Origin: Sandaracinaceae bacterium
GTDB lineage: Bacteria; Myxococcota_A; Polyangia; Polyangiales; Sandaracinaceae
Assembly (NCBI GenBank): GCA_040218145.1
Contig: JAVJQK010000115.1
Coordinates: 1-64,000, forward strand
Reading direction: 5' to 3'
Length of the DNA: 64,000 nt
Within the stretch, counting starts at the first letter, position 1, and every line of letters starts with the position of its first letter. The position numbers were made by a program, and so were the translations under genes. A model generated the notes under the pieces. The model was given only the letters and a program-made list of their open reading frames with translations, was not told the DNA's origin and did not search any database. Positions 33,613 through 59,711 of this stretch are shown here, in pieces.

Positions 33613-35016
33613 TCAGAGCGTCGGGAGGCGCACGCGCTTCGGGCGCGGGTCGGCGCCGGGCGGCGGCTCGGGGAGGGTTCCGTCGGCCTCGTAGAGATCA
33701 GCCACCAGGTCGTACGCGGCGGACTTCGTCACGAACGCCTTGCGGACCTCGCCCGGCTGCGCGGTGCCGTTGGCCAGGTAGACCTTGCCGTCGATCTCGG
33801 GGGCCTGACCCCACCAGCGGCCCTCGAGGAGCAGCTCGGACTCGTCGCTGATCCCTTCGACCAGGACCTCGACGTCGCGGCCCACCATCGCGTCCATCTT
33901 CCGCTTCGAGATGGGACGCTGGGCGGCCATGAGCTTGCGGTGCCGCGATGCGGCGACCTTCGGCGGGACCTGGGCGTCCATCGTGCCGCTCGCGGTGCCC
34001 TCTTCGACCGAGTAGCGGAAGACCCCGACCCGATCGAACTCGGCCCAGCGCACGAACTCGAGCAGCTCCTCGAAGTCGGCGTCGCTCTCGCCGGGGTGCC
34101 CGACGATGAAGGCGGTGCGGAAGACGAGGTCGTCGATCTGCGTGCGCATCCGGTCGACCACGCGCCGCAGCCGCTCACCGCCGTGCCCGCGCTTCATGCG
34201 GCGCAGCATCGCGTCGGACGCGTGCTGGAGCGGCATGTCCACGTAGGGCAGGACCTTCGGGTGCTCGGCCAGCAGCGTGATCAGGCCGTCCTTGATCGTC
34301 TCGGGGTAGAGGTAGAACAGGCGCACCCAGCGCAGGCCGGGCACCTCGGCCACCGCCTCGGCGAGCTTCGCCAGATCCGTGCCGTCCTTCAGGTCGCGGC
34401 CGTAGGCGATGGTGTCCTGGCTGATCAGGTTCACCTCCACCGTGCCGAGCTCGACCAGCCGCCGCACCTCCTCGACCACGTCCTCGACGCTCCGGCTGCG
34501 CTGCTTGCCGCGGAAGCTCGGGATGGTGCAAAACGCGCAAGACCGGTTGCACCCCTCGGCGATCTTCACGTAGGCGCTGTGGTTCCCCTGGGACAGCCGC
34601 CGCGGATCGGTCGCGCGGAGCGTGTAGTCGGCCGGGTTGCCCACCATCATGCGGGGCGCGCCCGCGCGGTCGAGCACCTCGCCGAGCTTGAGCATGTCGC
34701 TCGAGCCGAGGAAGTGGTCCACCTCGGGCATCTCCGAGGCGAGCTCCTCCGGGTAGCGCTGCGAGAGGCAGCCAGCGACCACGAGCTTCTGGCAGGAGCC
34801 CGTCTGGCGCAGCTCGCCCATCTCGAGGATCGTGTTGACCGACTCCTCCTTGGCCTCGTCGATGAACCCGCAGGTGTTGACGACGATCACCTCGGCGTCC
34901 TCGGCGCGGTCCACCAGGCGGTACGCCCGCGTGTCCGACACGCCGAGCATCACCTCGGTGTCCACCCGGTTCTTGGGGCAGCCGAGGGAGATGAAATGGA
35001 TGGTCTTTTCGCTCAT
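33613..35016 (-). CDS. rimO: Ribosomal protein S12 methylthiotransferase RimO
   Basis: A 467-residue radical SAM methylthiotransferase. The N-terminal UPF0004 domain has SLGCPKN, NTCGFIDEAK and AGCLSQRYPEEL, whose three Cys bind the auxiliary [4Fe-4S] cluster. The radical SAM motif is CNRSCAFC. A C-terminal TRAM domain follows (about 385-450). RimO adds a methylthio group to an Asp of ribosomal protein S12; CNRSCAFCTIPSFRGKQRS and IAYGRDL are typical of it rather than of MiaB. The start is ATG 35016. It is divergent from the SPASM radical SAM gene across 64 bases. Confidence 0.93.
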   Translation of the reverse strand: MSEKTIHFISLGCPKNRVDTEVMLGVSDTRAYRLVDRAEDAEVIVVNTCGFIDEAKEESVNTILEMGELRQTGSCQKLVVAGCLSQRYPEELASEMPEVDHFLGSSDMLKLGEVLDRAGAPRMMVGNPADYTLRATDPRRLSQGNHSAYVKIAEGCNRSCAFCTIPSFRGKQRSRSVEDVVEEVRRLVELGTVEVNLISQDTIAYGRDLKDGTDLAKLAEAVAEVPGLRWVRLFYLYPETIKDGLITLLAEHPKVLPYVDMPLQHASDAMLRRMKRGHGGERLRRVVDRMRTQIDDLVFRTAFIVGHPGESDADFEELLEFVRWAEFDRVGVFRYSVEEGTASGTMDAQVPPKVAASRHRKLMAAQRPISKRKMDAMVGRDVEVLVEGISDESELLLEGRWWGQAPEIDGKVYLANGTAQPGEVRKAFVTKSAAYDLVADLYEADGTLPEPPPGADPRPKRVRLPTL

Positions 35017-35080
35017 GCGCAGCGGGCCAACGTGACGCCGCACCCCGCACGGCGCAACCACTCGGTGTAGGCTGGCCGGC

Positions 35081-36166
35081 ATGGGGAGCCGTCCGAAGAA
35101 GTACGCGTTGGCGATCGAGCTGACGAGCTACTGCAACCAGAAGTGTGGCTACTGCTACAACGGCTGGCGCGACGACGGCGGCAAGTCGGTCGGGTCGCTG
35201 CCGCGGGACGAGCTGCTGACGCTGGTCGACCGCGCGCTGACCGAGGTCGACTTCGACCACGTGACGCTCACCGGCGGAGAGCCCTTCGCGCGCAAGGACG
35301 TCTTCGACGTGCTCGACGTGGTGAAGGGGCACGGCAAGCGGGCGAAGATCATTTCGAACGGCGGGCTGATCACCGACGCGCTCGCGGAGCGGCTCGCGCC
35401 CTATCGCCCCTACTTCGTGCAGATCACCCTCAACGGGATCGACAAAGAGACGCACGAAGCGCACGTGGGGCCGGGCCACTGGGAGGTCACCCTCGAGGGC
35501 ATCGAGGCCTGCCGCCGCGCGGGCGTGGTGCTCAGCGGCTGCGTGGTGGTGACGCGCAAGAACGCGCACCAGGTCGGCGCCATCCTCGATCTCTGGCGCA
35601 GCCACGGCGTGACGAACATCGCGCTCAGCCGCTTCTCCCCCGCGGGCTACGCGTCGGAGCAGGTGGCGGAGCTGCTCTGCTCGCGCTCCGAGCTCATCGA
35701 GGCGCTGAGCCAGGCAGAAGAGCGCGGGCGCGACCACGGCATGCAGATCCAGGTCACGATGCCCACGCCGCAGTGCGTGATCGAGCACGCCGACTACCCG
35801 CACGTGACCTTCGGCGGCTGCCCCATCGGCACCGAGATGCAGGAGCTCGCGCTCGGCCCGGACGGCGGCCTGCGCAATTGCACCCTGCACGAGGAGGTCA
35901 TCGGCAACGCCAAGGACGAGTCCTTCGCCGCCCTCGTGACCGCGCCCGCCGTCACCGCCTACCGCGACGTGACCGACGAGTTCTGCGAGCCCTGCCCGCT
36001 CAAGTCCTCGTGCCTCGGGGGCTGCGGCGCGGCCGCGCACTGGACGCTGGGGGAGGGCCGACGCCTCGACCCGTTCGTCGCGCAGCACGTCGACGAGGCC
36101 TTCGCCGAGCGCCTGAAGGGGCTGCGCGAGGGCGGGCTCATCGCCGCGGAGCGCCTGGTCCGATGA
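35081..36166 (+). CDS. Radical SAM protein with SPASM-type C-terminus
   Basis: A 361-residue radical SAM enzyme. Cys18, Cys22 and Cys25 (CNQKCGYC) bind the SAM cluster. TLTGGEPFARKDVFDVLDVV is the usual substrate/SAM block. A SPASM-like C-terminus is suggested by FGGCPIGTEMQELALGPDGGLRNC and CEPCPLKSSCLGGCGA, which supply auxiliary-cluster Cys. Such proteins often modify peptides, though some act on other substrates. The stop overlaps the next gene by four bases, which couples it to the B12/radical SAM/PIMT fusion. I found no candidate precursor peptide in the flanking gaps. Confidence 0.88.
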   Translation: MGSRPKKYALAIELTSYCNQKCGYCYNGWRDDGGKSVGSLPRDELLTLVDRALTEVDFDHVTLTGGEPFARKDVFDVLDVVKGHGKRAKIISNGGLITDALAERLAPYRPYFVQITLNGIDKETHEAHVGPGHWEVTLEGIEACRRAGVVLSGCVVVTRKNAHQVGAILDLWRSHGVTNIALSRFSPAGYASEQVAELLCSRSELIEALSQAEERGRDHGMQIQVTMPTPQCVIEHADYPHVTFGGCPIGTEMQELALGPDGGLRNCTLHEEVIGNAKDESFAALVTAPAVTAYRDVTDEFCEPCPLKSSCLGGCGAAAHWTLGEGRRLDPFVAQHVDEAFAERLKGLREGGLIAAERLVR

Positions 36167-38343
36167 CCCGCGTGCTGCTGCTGTGGCCGGGCTGCGAGGG
36201 CCCGGCGAGCGGCAACTTCGGGGTGCCGCAGCTCGTCCTGATGGCGACGCACGCGCGCCGCGAGACCGGCGCCCACGTCGAGATCGTCGACCTCGCGGCC
36301 GAGCGCTACTTCGGGCCCGTGGACGTCGCGAAGCTCTTCGAGGGCTGGGACGTCATCGCCTTCAGCGTCTACTCCAGCTTCGATCACCTCAAGTGCATGG
36401 CGCTCGCGGAGCTGGCCCGGCAGCAGAGCCCCGACGCGGTGATCATGGCGGGCGGCTACCACGCGAGCGCGCGCCCCACCGAGCAGGTCTTCGACGGCTC
36501 CCCCTACGACGTCTGCGTGGTGGGCGAAGGCGAGCTGGCCTTGGTCGAGGTCATCGAGTCGGTCGAGGGCGGCGCGCCGCTCAGGCAGACGATCCTCGCG
36601 AGCAACCCGGTGACCGACCTGGACTCGCTCCCGCCGAGCGACTGGAGCTACCTCGACCGCTACCGCCCCATCGCGCGCAAGGTCGCCTCGCAGGCCCAGG
36701 TCTATCTCTCGCGCGGCTGCCCGTTCGACTGCGCCTTCTGCATGGAGCGCGCAAAACGCGAGGTCAGCTGGCGCAGCCTCTCGGTCGAGCGCGCGGTGCA
36801 CGAGGTGGTCTCGCTCCACCGCTACCTCGATCTGCGGGGCTGGACGCTCTACGTGGCCGACGCGCTCTTCGGCATGAAGAAGAGCTGGCGGCGCGAGTTC
36901 CTGGCCGCGCTCGCGCGTGAGCAGGTCCCGGTCGACAAGCTCTGGCTGCTCATCCGCGTCGATCTCGTCGAGGACGAAGACCTGCGGCTCTTCGCGGACG
37001 CCAACTGCGGCCTCGGCTTCGGGCTCGAGTCGGGCGACCCGCAGCTCTTGGCCACCATTCGCAAGGCGGGCCGGCTCGACACCTACCTCGACCGCATGAA
37101 GGAGGTCAGCGCCTGGGCGCGCACCCATGACGTGCCGTGGGGCGCCAACATCATCTGCGGCCACCCCGGCGAGACGCCCGGCACGATGGAGCGGAGCGCG
37201 GCGTACATGCGCGAGCTCTTCCTCGACCCGAAGGGCGTGACCGGCTTTCTGAGCGTCGACCCGTTCCGGCTCTACCCCGGCTCGCCGATCGACACCGAGC
37301 GGCGGCAGTGGGAGCAGCGCTTCGGCACCGTCTTCCATCGGCCTTCGTGGTGGGACGACGGCGATCAGGAGTTCCTCGCGGAGTGGGTCGACCCGAGCGC
37401 GGAGCTCGACTGGCGCACGCGGACGCGGCTTCAGCACGAGCTCTACGGCCCGATCCTCCGCCGCATCGAGGACAACTTCGTCTACCGCGGCCCGGCCCGT
37501 GAGTACTTCCTGCGCGCGGTGCGCGACCAGGTGCAGCAGTCCGAGCCGCGGACCCGCGTGCACTACCTCGGGCGCTACTACGCCTGGCTCCGCTACCTCG
37601 GCTTCCGCGAGAAGGCGGAGCAGCTCATGCGCGACGACGCGAAGCTCACCGAGCTGACCCGCCGACGCCGCGTCGCCTGGCGCCCGACGGTCGCGGAGCG
37701 CGCGCAGCTCGCGCCCGACGACCCTTTCCTCGACGTCATCGAGCGCGTGCCGCGCGAGCGCTTCGTGCCCGTCGATCAGATCGCGGAGTCGACGCGCGAC
37801 GAGGCGATCCACCTCGACGACAGCGGCGCCGCCACCGTCAGCGCCATGCACGCCTACGCGCGCTCGTTCTCGCTGCTCCGGATCGAGGCGGGCATGACCG
37901 TGCTCGACCTCGGCGGCGGGACGGGGTACGGCGCGGCGATCCTCGCGGAGCTCGTCGGAGAGGCGGGGCGGGTGATCAGCGTGGAGCTGGACCCAGCCCT
38001 CAGCGCGCGCGCTCGGGCGCTCTGCCCCTCGAACGTCGTCTGCGTCTGCGGCGACGCGACCGACCCCGCGCGCTGGGAAGTCGACCCTTCCACCATCGAC
38101 GCCGTCACGGTCGGCTTCGCGCTGCCGTCCATCCCCGCGTCGTGGTCATCCGCGCTGCGCCCGGGGACGCGCCTGGCCGTCCCCGTCGGTGAAGGCGACG
38201 CGCAGCGCCTCCAGCTCGTGACCGTGGGCGGGGAGACGCGGACGCTCGAGCCGGTGCGCTACGTGCCGATGCGTCGGACCGTGCCCGCGCGCGCTGCGCC
38301 CACGAAGGCCCGCGCGAAGGCGCGCCTGCCGCTCGTGGACTGA
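36163..38343 (+). CDS. B12-binding radical SAM protein fused to a PIMT-like methyltransferase
   Basis: A 726-residue triple-domain protein. Residues about 1-140 form a cobalamin-binding-type Rossmann domain without the DxHxxG motif. Residues about 175-480 form the radical SAM domain with Cys186, Cys190 and Cys193 (CPFDCAFC), and a partial TIM barrel with LGFGLESGDPQLL and ANIICGHPGETPGTM. Residues about 507-726 form a protein L-isoaspartate methyltransferase-like domain: RVPRERFVPVDQ, VLDLGGGTGYGAAILAELVG (SAM motif I), ALPSIPASWSSALRPGTRLAVPVGE. The usual PIMT loop (DxPIGxGQTIS) is replaced by DDSGAATVSAMHAYA. It is coupled to the SPASM gene by an ATGA overlap. A natural-product or protein-modification role is inferred. 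Confidence 0.87.
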   Translation: MTRVLLLWPGCEGPASGNFGVPQLVLMATHARRETGAHVEIVDLAAERYFGPVDVAKLFEGWDVIAFSVYSSFDHLKCMALAELARQQSPDAVIMAGGYHASARPTEQVFDGSPYDVCVVGEGELALVEVIESVEGGAPLRQTILASNPVTDLDSLPPSDWSYLDRYRPIARKVASQAQVYLSRGCPFDCAFCMERAKREVSWRSLSVERAVHEVVSLHRYLDLRGWTLYVADALFGMKKSWRREFLAALAREQVPVDKLWLLIRVDLVEDEDLRLFADANCGLGFGLESGDPQLLATIRKAGRLDTYLDRMKEVSAWARTHDVPWGANIICGHPGETPGTMERSAAYMRELFLDPKGVTGFLSVDPFRLYPGSPIDTERRQWEQRFGTVFHRPSWWDDGDQEFLAEWVDPSAELDWRTRTRLQHELYGPILRRIEDNFVYRGPAREYFLRAVRDQVQQSEPRTRVHYLGRYYAWLRYLGFREKAEQLMRDDAKLTELTRRRRVAWRPTVAERAQLAPDDPFLDVIERVPRERFVPVDQIAESTRDEAIHLDDSGAATVSAMHAYARSFSLLRIEAGMTVLDLGGGTGYGAAILAELVGEAGRVISVELDPALSARARALCPSNVVCVCGDATDPARWEVDPSTIDAVTVGFALPSIPASWSSALRPGTRLAVPVGEGDAQRLQLVTVGGETRTLEPVRYVPMRRTVPARAAPTKARAKARLPLVD

Positions 38344-38421: not shown

Positions 38422-39297
38422 TCAGAGCTGGGCGAAGACGGATGCGCGCTCCGATGGCGCGTCGATCAGCTGCGCGGCCGCGCGCGCTTCACAGAGGCCG
38501 AGGGCCCTCGCCTGCGTGACGAGCGGCGCCAGATCGAGCCCCGCGAGCCAGCTTGCGTGCGCGTCGCGGAGAGCGTCGCTCGCGTCCGCGAGCTGACGGG
38601 CGACGGCCGAGAGCGCGCTCCACTCGGCGCGCACGTAGTCGCCGCTCTCCCGCCGGCCCGCGTCACGGACCATCGCCTCGTGCATGGCGAGCACGGCGGG
38701 GCTCTCCGGCGCGAGCCCGCTCCAGTCGTCCGGCACGCCCACGAGCACGCGCCGCTCGAACGCCCGGCCGCGCGCGCCCAGGGACCAGACCAGCTCCACG
38801 TCGGCGCCCTGCAGCGCGGGGCACCGCTCTCTCGCCTCGGCCATCGGCGCGCGGAGCCGCTCGAGCCGCTCGAGACACGAGGCCAGCAGCTCGCGGTGCC
38901 AGGCGGTCGCGAAGGCGGGGGCGGCGAGGGAGATCGCGGCGCGGAGCAGCTCCACGTGCTTCGCGTCTCGCACGCGGGCCAGGACGCGCGCGTCGGCCAC
39001 GTCGCCGTCGCTCAGCTCGGTCATCGCGAGCGCGGCCGTCGCGCGGAGCTGCGCGACGTCGCCGTAGAGCTCGGGCAAGAGCTGCAGGTCGAGTGAGGCG
39101 TCCCCGCGGGCGAGCGCGACGATCGTCTCCGCGTCGCGCGCGATGGGCTCCCAGGCCATCCCGGGCAGGGTCGCCCGGAGCCACGCGAGGTAGCGCGCGT
39201 CGGACAGGCGCTCCGGGCCAGGGAGAGGCAGAAACGTCAGGGCGTGGCAGCAGAGCTGGGTGTAGTCGTTCGCGACGCGGAGCACGGGAGCGGTCAC
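38422..39297 (-). CDS. Helical protein of unknown function
   Basis: A 291-residue Ala/Leu/Arg-rich, largely helical, probably soluble protein. It has short Cys pairs (QLCCHALTF) and blocks such as LPLPGPERLSDARYLAWL and VWSLGARGRAFERRVLVGVPDDW. No family or catalytic motif is recognised. The start GTG 39297 overlaps the stop of the small lipoprotein gene upstream by four bases, so both are probably co-translated. It might be a cofactor of the lipoprotein or peptidase upstream. Confidence 0.72.
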   Translation of the reverse strand: MTAPVLRVANDYTQLCCHALTFLPLPGPERLSDARYLAWLRATLPGMAWEPIARDAETIVALARGDASLDLQLLPELYGDVAQLRATAALAMTELSDGDVADARVLARVRDAKHVELLRAAISLAAPAFATAWHRELLASCLERLERLRAPMAEARERCPALQGADVELVWSLGARGRAFERRVLVGVPDDWSGLAPESPAVLAMHEAMVRDAGRRESGDYVRAEWSALSAVARQLADASDALRDAHASWLAGLDLAPLVTQARALGLCEARAAAQLIDAPSERASVFAQL

Positions 39298-39578
39298 TCG
39301 GGAGGCGCAGGAGGGACGGGGTCGTCGTCGGTGTCGATCTCGCCCCTCTCCGGCGCGGGCTCTGCCTCCCCGGTCGGCTCGGGGGGCATCGGCGGGCTCA
39401 GACAGGGCATCGGCGGCGAGGGGTCGCCTTCGTCGGGCTGGACGATCGGTGGCTCGAGGCAGACGGTCGGGCCGGGCGCCTCGTCACACGCGGCCGCGGC
39501 GAGCCCCGAGAGCGCGAGGCCGATCAGGCGGCTCCGACGCGCGAGGATGGCGGCGCGGTCCTCGTCGTCCGACGACAT
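39294..39578 (-). CDS. Small Pro-rich exported protein
   Basis: A 94-residue protein starting at ATG 39578. A charged N-terminus (SSDDEDRAAILARRSR) precedes a membrane/signal helix (LIGLALSGLAAAAC), giving a possible lipobox Cys at about residue 31. The rest is Pro/Glu/Asp-rich with three further Cys (LEPPIVQPDEGDPSPPMPCLSPPMPPEP). The stop overlaps the next gene (GTGA). It follows the M28-type peptidase-like gene by 23 bases in the same direction. Function unknown. Confidence 0.65.
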   Translation of the reverse strand: MSSDDEDRAAILARRSRLIGLALSGLAAAACDEAPGPTVCLEPPIVQPDEGDPSPPMPCLSPPMPPEPTGEAEPAPERGEIDTDDDPVPPAPPE

Positions 39579-57504: not shown

Positions 57505-59103
57505 TCAGCGCGAGGGCGCGGGCGCCGCCATCAGCTGGTCGCCGAAGGTGGCCTTGAAGAGCAGGTCGAGCGCCCTCAGCGCGCTCGGGCCGAGGTGGTG
57601 CGTCCGGAGGCCCACGCCCGCGTCGTGCATGGGGGAGATGCGTCGGTCGATCTTGGTGCGGTCGAAGTCGATCAGGCCCGCGTCACGCATCTGTCGGTGC
57701 AGCACCGTGATCGGATACGGCGCGAGGAAGCCGTAGCGCACGAAGTCGGGTCGAGCCTCCAGCAGGAAGCGCACGAGACGAAGGTAGGTGCGCAAGGAAT
57801 CTTTCGGAAACCCGAACATCACGTAGGCGGCGCTCTGGAGCCCGGCTTCACGCGTCAGCTCGAAGGCGCGCCGCGCGTCCGCCACGGTGTGCCCCTTCTG
57901 CACCTGGGCGAGCACGGCGTCGTCGCCGCTCTCGACCCCGTAGTAGATCGTCTTGCATCCGGCGTCGCGCATCGACCGCAGCATCGGTCGGGTCACGAGG
58001 TCGGGCTTCCCTTCGCAGAGCCAGTGGAGGTCGAGACCCGCCTCGACGATCGCCTCGGAGACGCGATGCCCGTGCGCGTTGGTGAAGATCTCGTCGAAGA
58101 CGAAGAAGTCCCTGCAGCCGAACCGGCGACCCAGGAGACGGATCTCTTCGAGGACGTTGCGCGGATCGCGCCTGCGGAACCGGAACGGGCGCTCGTCGAC
58201 GCCACCCACCATGCAGAACGTGCAGGAGTAGGGGCAGCCGCGGCTCGAGGTCACGAAGTAGCCGCTGCGCACGCCGTAGTAGGGCAGCGTGTACTGCTTC
58301 CCCCACAGCGGCGGCATCACGTCGAGGTCGGGGAGTGGGTGCCGGTCGAGATCCTCGACCACGCGGATGAACCCCGCCACCTGGCCCGGGACCGACATGC
58401 CCGCGATCTCGCCCAGCTCCACGCCGTCCGCGATCTCCTCCGCGAAGGCGTCGATCTCGCCGCACGCGATGGCGTCGAGGTACGGGAGCTCCTCGAAGAT
58501 CTGCGCCTCCGCGTGGACCGCGCCGCGGCACGCCAGGACGATGCGGACGTGCGGGTGTGCGGCCTTGTAGCGTGCGGCGACCTCGAGCTCGTGCTCGAGG
58601 ATGTCGATGATGCCCTTGACGACGATGACGTCCGGGCGCTGGGCCTCGATCCGACGGTGCGTCTCGTCGGCCGTCAGGTCCTCCGCGTTCGCGTCGATCA
58701 TCGCCACGTCCGCCCGGTCGCGCGCCGCCGCCGCGAAGTACCCGAGATCCATCGGCGGGATGTGGTTCCCCTGCACGAAGAGATACTCGCTGCGGAACAT
58801 CCGGAAGACCGTGATGCCCCGGTACCGGGGCGGGTTGAGCAGGGTGATCCGCAGGCGATCGCGCAGCCCGCGCGGACGGGACTCGGGCCCCGAAGGCGCC
58901 ATGGGGAGGCCGCGCCGCGTGCGTCGGGTCTCCGCGCTCGGCGGGCCGACCTGGTTGGTCCGCTCGACGGCGGTGGGGGCAGGCTCCGCGCTCCGTCGCT
59001 CCAGCTCGGCGGCCAGCCGGAGTGTGGTCTTCAGCGCCGGCCGCACCACGCGCGCCACCCGCCGCGCCGCCGCTCGCCAGCTCGCCTCGCCCTGCGTGGT
59101 CAC
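57505..59103 (-). CDS. B12-binding-type radical SAM protein
   Basis: A 532-residue protein starting at GTG 59103. A basic N-terminal extension (about 1-75) is followed by a cobalamin-type Rossmann domain (about 85-215, ITLLNPPRYRGITVFRM, PDVIVVKGIIDI, GEIDAFAEEIADG) and a radical SAM domain with CPYSCTFC (about residues 285-292), GGVDERPFRFRRRDPRNVLEEI, YYGVESGDDAVL and AAYVMFGFPKDS. The layout matches BchE/HpnP-like enzymes that act on lipids or ring compounds. It overlaps the upstream membrane protein gene by four bases (GTGA), suggesting that the pair acts on a membrane-bound substrate. Confidence 0.85.
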   Translation of the reverse strand: MTTQGEASWRAAARRVARVVRPALKTTLRLAAELERRSAEPAPTAVERTNQVGPPSAETRRTRRGLPMAPSGPESRPRGLRDRLRITLLNPPRYRGITVFRMFRSEYLFVQGNHIPPMDLGYFAAAARDRADVAMIDANAEDLTADETHRRIEAQRPDVIVVKGIIDILEHELEVAARYKAAHPHVRIVLACRGAVHAEAQIFEELPYLDAIACGEIDAFAEEIADGVELGEIAGMSVPGQVAGFIRVVEDLDRHPLPDLDVMPPLWGKQYTLPYYGVRSGYFVTSSRGCPYSCTFCMVGGVDERPFRFRRRDPRNVLEEIRLLGRRFGCRDFFVFDEIFTNAHGHRVSEAIVEAGLDLHWLCEGKPDLVTRPMLRSMRDAGCKTIYYGVESGDDAVLAQVQKGHTVADARRAFELTREAGLQSAAYVMFGFPKDSLRTYLRLVRFLLEARPDFVRYGFLAPYPITVLHRQMRDAGLIDFDRTKIDRRISPMHDAGVGLRTHHLGPSALRALDLLFKATFGDQLMAAPAPSR

Positions 59104-59711
59104 GCGTCCTCGCCTTCGTGGTGGATCCCGATCCGCCTGAGCCTCTCCCGCGCCGACTCCCCGTACAGGTGCCCGTATCCCTTCACGAAGCCGTAGACGC
59201 AGACCACGAGGGTAGCGTCCACCGCGAAGAGCACGCAGTACCCCACCGTCATCAGGTACCAGTAGAGGTGCTGTTGCTCGAAGAACCATCGAACCGCGCG
59301 CGGTGCCCGCATGGAGGTGTACTGAAGCAAATCATGCGACACCCCGAGCGGGACGAGCACGGCGAGGAAGTACCCGAAGACCCAGGGGTGCTCCCCGACG
59401 GAGGGACCGTGGACCAGCACGAAGCCGAGCAGCGCCGCGCCCATCACCCCGTGGTTGGGGCCGTCGATGCGCCCTCGGAGCACCCAGCTGATCAAGACGG
59501 CGAGCCAGAGGAGGTGGATGGCGTCGTTGCCCAGGGCGAGCATGCCGACGCAGAGCCCGGCGGAGACGACGCCGGTCGCCAGCGCGGCGTGGCGGAACCA
59601 GACGTAGCCGTGCTCCTGGAGCAGATCGCTGAGCTTCAACACCACGCCGAACGCGAAGCTCACCGCGGCCATGCCCAGCACCTGGGCCAGGTACTCCAAC
59701 GGGATGCTCAT
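59100..59711 (-). CDS. Multi-pass membrane protein of unknown family
   Basis: A 203-residue protein with about six membrane helices: YLAQVLGMAAVSFAFGVVL, AALATGVVSAGLCVGMLAL, IHLLWLAVLISWVL, GVMGAALLGFVLVHG, VFGYFLAVLVPLGVSHDLL and YLMTVGYCVLFAVDATLVVCVYGFV. Polar motifs GPNHGVMG and HGPSVGEHPW lie at membrane edges and may be catalytic or binding sites. No family is recognised. It is coupled to the B12 radical SAM gene by a four-base overlap. It could present the substrate of that enzyme or be a small membrane enzyme of lipid metabolism. Confidence 0.75.
   Translation of the reverse strand: MSIPLEYLAQVLGMAAVSFAFGVVLKLSDLLQEHGYVWFRHAALATGVVSAGLCVGMLALGNDAIHLLWLAVLISWVLRGRIDGPNHGVMGAALLGFVLVHGPSVGEHPWVFGYFLAVLVPLGVSHDLLQYTSMRAPRAVRWFFEQQHLYWYLMTVGYCVLFAVDATLVVCVYGFVKGYGHLYGESARERLRRIGIHHEGEDA

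Follow-up and report, generated by a model that had tools for sequence, protein, structure and literature searches.

A candidate radical SAM maturation cassette for Cys-Leu repeat proteins with lipoprotein-like leaders in myxobacteria

A 64,000-nucleotide stretch (hereafter the window) of the 11.06 Mb draft genome G000 of a Sandaracinaceae bacterium (assembly GCA_040218145.1, contig JAVJQK010000115.1) encodes a SPASM radical S-adenosylmethionine (SAM) enzyme, a protein in which a cobalamin (B12)-binding domain, a radical SAM domain and a domain like protein-L-isoaspartate methyltransferase (PIMT) are fused, a zincin-like protein and a small protein with Pro-Cys-Leu motifs. Comparison of the predicted proteins across genomes shows that the SPASM enzyme, the B12-radical SAM-PIMT fusion, the zincin-like protein and putative substrates with [P/G]-C-L repeats constitute one conserved cassette. 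It also shows that in clade A, the clade of the window, the putative substrates are marked by a common leader and are also scattered round the genome, and that this leader is almost confined to genomes with clade A enzymes. Probably, these enzymes rewrite a Cys-Leu motif that recurs within a family of lipoprotein-like proteins destined for export. We consider it fairly likely that this is a system of the type that makes ribosomally synthesized and post-translationally modified peptides (RiPPs), which would modify Cys-Leu before export and serve many substrates in trans.

The gene of the SPASM enzyme (35081-36166, + strand; 361 aa) is followed by that of the fusion protein (36163-38343, + strand; 726 aa), whose start overlaps the end of the former by 4 bp (ATGA), as had been read in an earlier note made from the DNA letters of the window. 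The SPASM protein matches the Pfam family Radical_SAM with an E value of 7e-24 and the Pfam family SPASM with an E value of 0.0015 and 19.2 bits, slightly below the cut-off of 21.5. Its radical SAM cysteines of the CxxxCxxC motif are C18, C22 and C25, and the auxiliary cysteines are C232, C247, C267, C302, C305, C311 and C315, with the G262-x4-C267 and CX2CX5CX3C arrangements present. All three radical SAM and all seven auxiliary cysteines are kept in 45 of 45 relatives, and thus two auxiliary clusters are expected in this protein. The fusion protein contains a B12-binding domain (residues 32-130, E 6e-11) and a Radical_SAM domain (residues 181-346, E 2e-12), both above the Pfam gathering scores, and a PCMT/PIMT domain (residues 519-703, E 6e-30); the cluster-binding cysteines are conserved in both radical enzymes. 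In the AlphaFold model of the fusion (predicted local distance difference test, pLDDT, 92) the first part matches TsrM, TokK and CysS, and the last part matches the PIMT 2yxe with a template modelling score of 0.84 by target and 31% identity. The high-confidence model places a PIMT domain behind a fold of the class B radical SAM type, in agreement with the triple fusion proposed earlier. Regarding NCBIfam, the best matches of the SPASM protein (NirJ2 and ScmE) lie far below their cut-offs, and for the fusion, which reached no cut-off, TIGR04013 and ApyD rank with the best sequence matches. OxsB-type B12 radical SAM enzymes are non-methylating, so that homology alone leaves methyl transfer by the fusion unsettled. 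The window encodes a second B12-binding/radical SAM protein in a 594-aa open reading frame (ORF; 57505-59289, - strand), which lacks a PIMT domain and is ~31% identical to the B12-radical SAM part of the fusion.

A protein query of one genome collection retrieved 23 loci, all titled myxobacteria or Deltaproteobacteria except one "uncultured bacterium", and in 23 of 23 the SPASM gene adjoins the fusion gene. The closest public locus (L009) belongs to a Sandaracinaceae metagenome-assembled genome and shows 99% identity. Among 379 sampled Myxococcota genomes, where a carrier of the fusion was defined by a match at E <= 1e-60, the pair is carried by 41, so that homologues of the fusion do co-occur with the SPASM gene as the previous interpretation of this region required. 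Clade A comprises 23 genomes, in which the fusion is ~41-65% identical to that of the window and the SPASM orthologue, in most of the clade, 50-69% identical. The full-length members of clade B have fusions with 33-38% identity to that of the window. In the remaining homologues examined the SPASM partner is ~27-40% identical (~27-34% in clade B) and still adjacent to the fusion gene. Genomes of the same family in which the pair is absent encode no SPASM paralogues other than distant ones. The carriers include the cultured Paraliomyxa miuraensis SMH-27-4 (L017). One carrier (G186), a fragment at a contig end, was placed in neither clade and is counted among the 356 other genomes in the comparisons below. 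The loci of G278 and G072 (L039 and L041) each show one TGA within the aligned fusion-gene match, probably at the end of the range.

The earlier note had found no precursor peptide gene close by, a point in which it was mistaken. A gene on the opposite strand (39294-39578, -) encodes a putative 94-aa precursor or substrate protein, MSSDDEDRAAILARRSRLIGLALSGLAAAACDEAPGPTVCLEPPIVQPDEGDPSPPMPCLSPPMPPEPTGEAEPAPERGEIDTDDDPVPPAPPE, with a Tat-like lipoprotein leader (Tat, twin-arginine translocation) and the motifs PTVCLEPP and PMPCLSPP; its stop overlaps by 4 bp the GTG start of the gene encoding the zincin-like third component. This gene had been missed together with the third component and three further substrates that lie on other contigs. 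The conserved leader, MSSDDEDRAAILARRSRLIGLALSGLAAAAC (39486-39578, -), contains twin arginines, a hydrophobic stretch and a lipobox-like Cys. In many relatives a small ORF fills the gap between the SPASM and fusion genes, and elsewhere it lies directly beside the pair. A conserved small ORF near homologues, repeat-bearing and precursor-like, which had been named as the observation that would favor a peptide substrate, was thus found. The small ORFs of clade A share the leader DxDRxAILARRxRFVAAALAGL...C, followed by one to seven copies of the Pro-Cys-Leu motif, and in the alignment of 29 leaders R14, R15 and C31 are invariant; some substrates end the leader with an AxA-like sequence in place of the Cys. 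The clade A leader resembles the signal of Tat-exported lipoproteins. The clade B precursor gene is found immediately upstream of the gene for the SPASM enzyme. Its product begins differently, contains as many as ten GPCL[S/D] repeats and carries a C-terminal helix, LPxDVAxRL, that is conserved and may be the recognition element there in place of the leader. No Pfam or NCBIfam family was found for the precursors; NF050125 and NF058595 appeared as weak matches below cut-off only, in the searches with precursors and third components. A precursor gene with a conserved leader and core motif is thus encoded alongside modifying enzymes, as in RiPP systems broadly defined.

Substrates that lie apart from the enzymes were revealed by a profile of the leader only. 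In the genome of the window it gave four strong matches (E 5e-12 to 5e-9), the next being at 0.2; these are the window's own gene (E 2.8e-11) and three on other contigs, and all three distant proteins carry Cys-Leu motifs (for example GPCLGAP, TPCLEPP, EPCLSAP and GPCLSAP in L081). Over the 379 genomes, 24 were matched at E <= 0.001, namely 23 of 23 clade A carriers vs 1 of the 356 others, the latter weakly (E 4.4e-4). Each clade A carrier has 1-15 leader matches dispersed through the genome. This includes G341 and G256, which are carriers with leader matches even though no sequence of theirs contributed to the profile; neither the enzymes nor the leader occur in four relatives from the window's own family. 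Since the profile holds no core information, it is blind to the Cys-Leu motif, and yet Cys-Leu follows the leader in 55 of 55 distinct leader-bearing proteins read. A Cys after the leader is followed by Leu in 197 of 221 cases, compared with a mean of 14 and a maximum of 28 in shuffled sequences. The motif has the consensus PQ[P/V/A]CL[S/E/K]PP for clade A substrates and VGPCL[S/D]PP for those of clade B. In the short substrates L113, L119 and L114 there is a single motif almost at the C-terminus (ICLSEW or MICLSEF), and two proteins of ~440 aa, L101 (G103:C3:1445588) and L136 (G246:C276:31301), combine the shared leader with one internal VCLQPCLSPPPP or CMPCLSPPPP, which looks to be located between a part like TPR/PEGA-type repeats and a barrel-like C-terminal part. 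The occurrence of single C-terminal motifs and of internal motifs in these larger proteins argues that the enzymes require the motif rather than an entire core peptide, and L101 and L136 could reveal the purpose of the modification.

The third component (38422-39297, - strand; 291 aa) is modelled with a zincin-like fold, and no Pfam or NCBIfam family was found for it. Homologues are encoded beside the system in many clade A loci; the clade B counterpart forms, in several genomes, a C-terminal extension of the B12-radical SAM-PIMT protein, or else is encoded next to it. A profile comparison relates the forms of both clades (93% probability, E 2.6e-7), and intermediates link them, such as L050, which matches the clade B profile at 1e-55. 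Clade B members have a later Glu and, in 14 of 14, an HExxH motif, while in clade A the His-Glu and the later Glu are kept, the second His is lost (HEAMV in the window copy) and His18 is invariant. With the model of this protein (pLDDT 95), a Foldseek search against the PDB gave nothing at E <= 0.001. The best structural match, obtained with VIA-align, was the HExxH domain of ChlB (8s5f), a weak one with Z 5.8 and a root-mean-square deviation of 5.3 over 152 aligned residues, followed by zinc peptidases, none of them above Z 4.1. Kinship to the ChlB domain is taken from this match as a lead, not as proof. Membership in TIGR04267 by sequence was considered and rejected, as there was no hmmscan match, the hhalign probability was below 1% and the HExxH motif is incomplete in the window copy. 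The HExxH enzymes described from RiPP pathways either hydroxylate peptides or cleave them (PMC12636437). Three TIGR04267 domains are encoded in the same genome (G000:C122:241784-242287, G000:C70:240317-240811 and G000:C41:99058-99429), two of them above the cut-off, which suggests the presence of further RiPP-type loci.

The PIMT domain differs from repair enzymes in a way that had been anticipated. In the alignment to 2yxe, IGYGQTISAIHM is replaced by DDSGAATVSAMHA; T-[IV]-S-A-x-H is retained and the IGxGQ part is gone. The SAM-binding motif I of the window protein, DLGGGTGYG, is intact, and clade A domains in general retain DLGxGTGYG and T[VI]SAxHAYA and lack the IGxGQ portion of the substrate loop. 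In clade B the SAM-binding motif is degenerate (for example DLTGRSAYV or DLLATRGYV). As this motif is lost in clade B while the substrate motif is the same, methylation by the PIMT domain is not the core chemistry common to both clades, and the intact vs lost site provides a natural experiment on the role of the domain. An ordinary repair PIMT is unlikely, because the domain is fused to a B12-radical SAM enzyme and its substrate loop is changed, departing from the IGxGQT[IV]S of repair enzymes; in addition, the whole protein scored 91.1 bits against the repair family TIGR00080, below its cut-off of 159.05.

Based on this evidence, a sequence of events can be proposed. The leader would be recognized by the enzymes in the cytoplasm, and the SPASM enzyme would act on the Cys-Leu unit, most likely by forming a thioether or by another radical change centered on Cys or Leu. 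The B12 enzyme would then methylate or otherwise complete the unit, and the PIMT domain may be structural only in clade B and, in clade A, methylate the product at an acidic side chain or a different nucleophile. Such an order, radical enzymes first and PIMT later, fits the observation that PIMT enzymes of RiPP pathways generally act on already cyclised peptides (PMC11285071). The third protein may bind the substrate and trim or oxidise it, and the product would leave via the Tat pathway, usually lipidated at the leader Cys. The outcome would be surface proteins bearing 1-10 modified Cys-Leu units, with metal binding, cross-linking or anchoring as candidate roles. In its most specific form, this proposal states that one enzyme set puts a Cys-Leu-derived group on up to ~15 different Tat-exported lipoproteins and outer-membrane proteins per cell, that the export signal doubles as recognition tag and that no diffusible natural product is made; we hold this version tentatively, at a little under an even chance.

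Several points weigh against the RiPP-like reading in general. Tat export and lipidation are read from signal-like sequence alone. The substrates of clade B start differently, and recognition of an RR..ALAG leader fails there. In four clade A genomes (L010, L011, L013 and L028) the flanks of the enzyme genes that were read hold no substrate, and leader matches are found elsewhere. Finally, the association of leader and clade A enzymes (Fisher p 6e-36) was computed over related genomes with a profile partly built from the same loci, and the p value overstates independence.

Among the alternatives, the one that fares best is a classical secreted RiPP, in which the repeats are cores that, after modification of the precursor, are excised and set free as small peptides, the leader being merely a leader. 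Precursors with several cores, the repeats near-identical and the spacers rich in Pro and Asp, agree with such a product, as does a third component with a peptidase-like fold and HExxH in clade B. The leader, however, looks like a Tat/lipoprotein signal with a Cys that is invariant in the aligned set, which suggests retention, and the substrates are dispersed in 1-15 copies per genome, some of them with a single motif near the C-terminus and others larger, multi-domain proteins; among the genes neighboring the system in the window, neither a conserved transporter nor another peptidase was found. A secreted peptide thus appears rather doubtful.

The note that preceded this analysis had pointed to aspartimides, and in this pathway the PIMT domain would turn an Asp of the cyclised product into aspartimide or isoaspartate, as in graspetides, lanthipeptides and lasso peptides. 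Homology to PIMT, the intact SAM motif of clade A, the general preference of RiPP PIMTs for cyclised substrates (PMC11285071) and the presence of Asp in every clade A core examined speak for it, but Asp makes up 10% of residues and would be expected in every core by chance, it has no fixed position relative to Cys-Leu, and 12 of 55 cores lack Asp-Gly, Asp-Asn or Asp-Ser. The conserved element is Cys-Leu, not Asp; moreover, the substrate loop lacks its IGxGQ part and clade B keeps the substrate motif in spite of the lost SAM motif. Aspartimide formation did not gain specific support and is regarded as unlikely. It is improbable, too, that the modified Cys-Leu repeats are metal ligands and the lipoproteins cell-surface chelators of copper or iron, with a role like that of bufferins. 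Up to ten repeats with one Cys each and a leader suggesting an exported form would suit this function, and PMC12452194 describes a copper role for bufferins, which are made by multinuclear non-heme iron-dependent oxidative enzymes (MNIOs); against it, neither a metal-responsive gene nor a second ligand residue proved to be conserved, and no MNIO was found in the cassette. That the enzymes act on a small molecule, lipid or RNA, with the repeat proteins as unrelated passengers, is very hard to sustain: CysS, TokK and OxsB, B12 radical SAM enzymes that act on small molecules, are among the nearest folds, but substrates and enzymes co-occur near-perfectly, including substrates far from the enzymes.

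A RiPP-like system that modifies Cys-Leu, the explanation preferred here, shares features with several known ones. Like the SPASM-matured RiPPs (sactipeptides, ranthipeptides, triceptides and mycofactocin) it has the full set of auxiliary cysteines, a small repeat-bearing gene beside the enzymes, and a leader with a repeated core motif; it differs in the Pro-Cys-Leu motif, the Tat-lipoprotein-like leader and the many substrates in trans. The fusion follows class B radical SAM enzymes (TsrM, TokK, CysS, MgmA and ApyD) in its B12-binding domain preceding a radical SAM domain with CxxxCxxC, unlike them in bearing a C-terminal PIMT domain and, in some clade B chains, the third component as well. 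TIGR04133 and TIGR04134 represent one radical SAM gene paired with one lipoprotein in other phyla, a comparable combination of radical SAM enzyme and putative lipoprotein substrate, whereas two radical SAM enzymes, a PIMT domain, a third protein and repeated Cys-Leu motifs are present here; neither family is among the best 25 of the 69 families matching the SPASM protein, and queries with the substrate and the third component gave no such match at E 1. With PIMT-like aspartyl O-methyltransferases that act in RiPP biosynthesis, among them OlvSA (reviewed in PMC11285071), it has in common the PIMT fold, the SAM motif in clade A and T-[IV]-S-A-x-H, and the differences are the fusion to a B12-radical SAM enzyme, the altered loop, the loss of the SAM motif in clade B and the lack of a fixed Asp. 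The alpha-ketoglutarate-dependent HExxH peptide hydroxylases (ChlB, PflC and PosC; TIGR04267) may share a zincin-like fold with the third component, 8s5f being its best if weak structural match, and resemble it in having a radical SAM partner, fused in some genomes as in ChlB, and, for clade B members, in HExxH, although a sequence relation is undetectable and the window protein lacks the second His.

No description of the system was found in the open-licence literature, no Pfam or NCBIfam model describes it, and its enzymes score far below every NCBIfam cut-off. The myxobacterial system, of the radical SAM peptide-maturation kind, is apparently undescribed so far, which supports the earlier suggestion of an undescribed modification pathway, the two genes co-occurring throughout. 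The chemistry is directly testable, since substrates with a clear motif are tied to a pair of radical SAM enzymes, to a PIMT domain and to an unclassified component that resembles a metalloprotein. If confirmed, the genome-wide use of such enzymes on lipoproteins tagged by an export signal would be the truly surprising part, and if this signal doubles as recognition tag, radical SAM chemistry would decorate surface lipoproteins of myxobacteria, beyond making small peptides.

No plasmid-borne copies of the system were found. The other window genes tested (those for RimO, a ferredoxin, an M28-like peptidase and others) did not recur in relatives save for the near-identical L009. Among them, in a neighborhood that is not kept in other genomes, the gene of a RimO-like methylthiotransferase (33613-35082, - strand) is the divergent neighbor of the SPASM gene.

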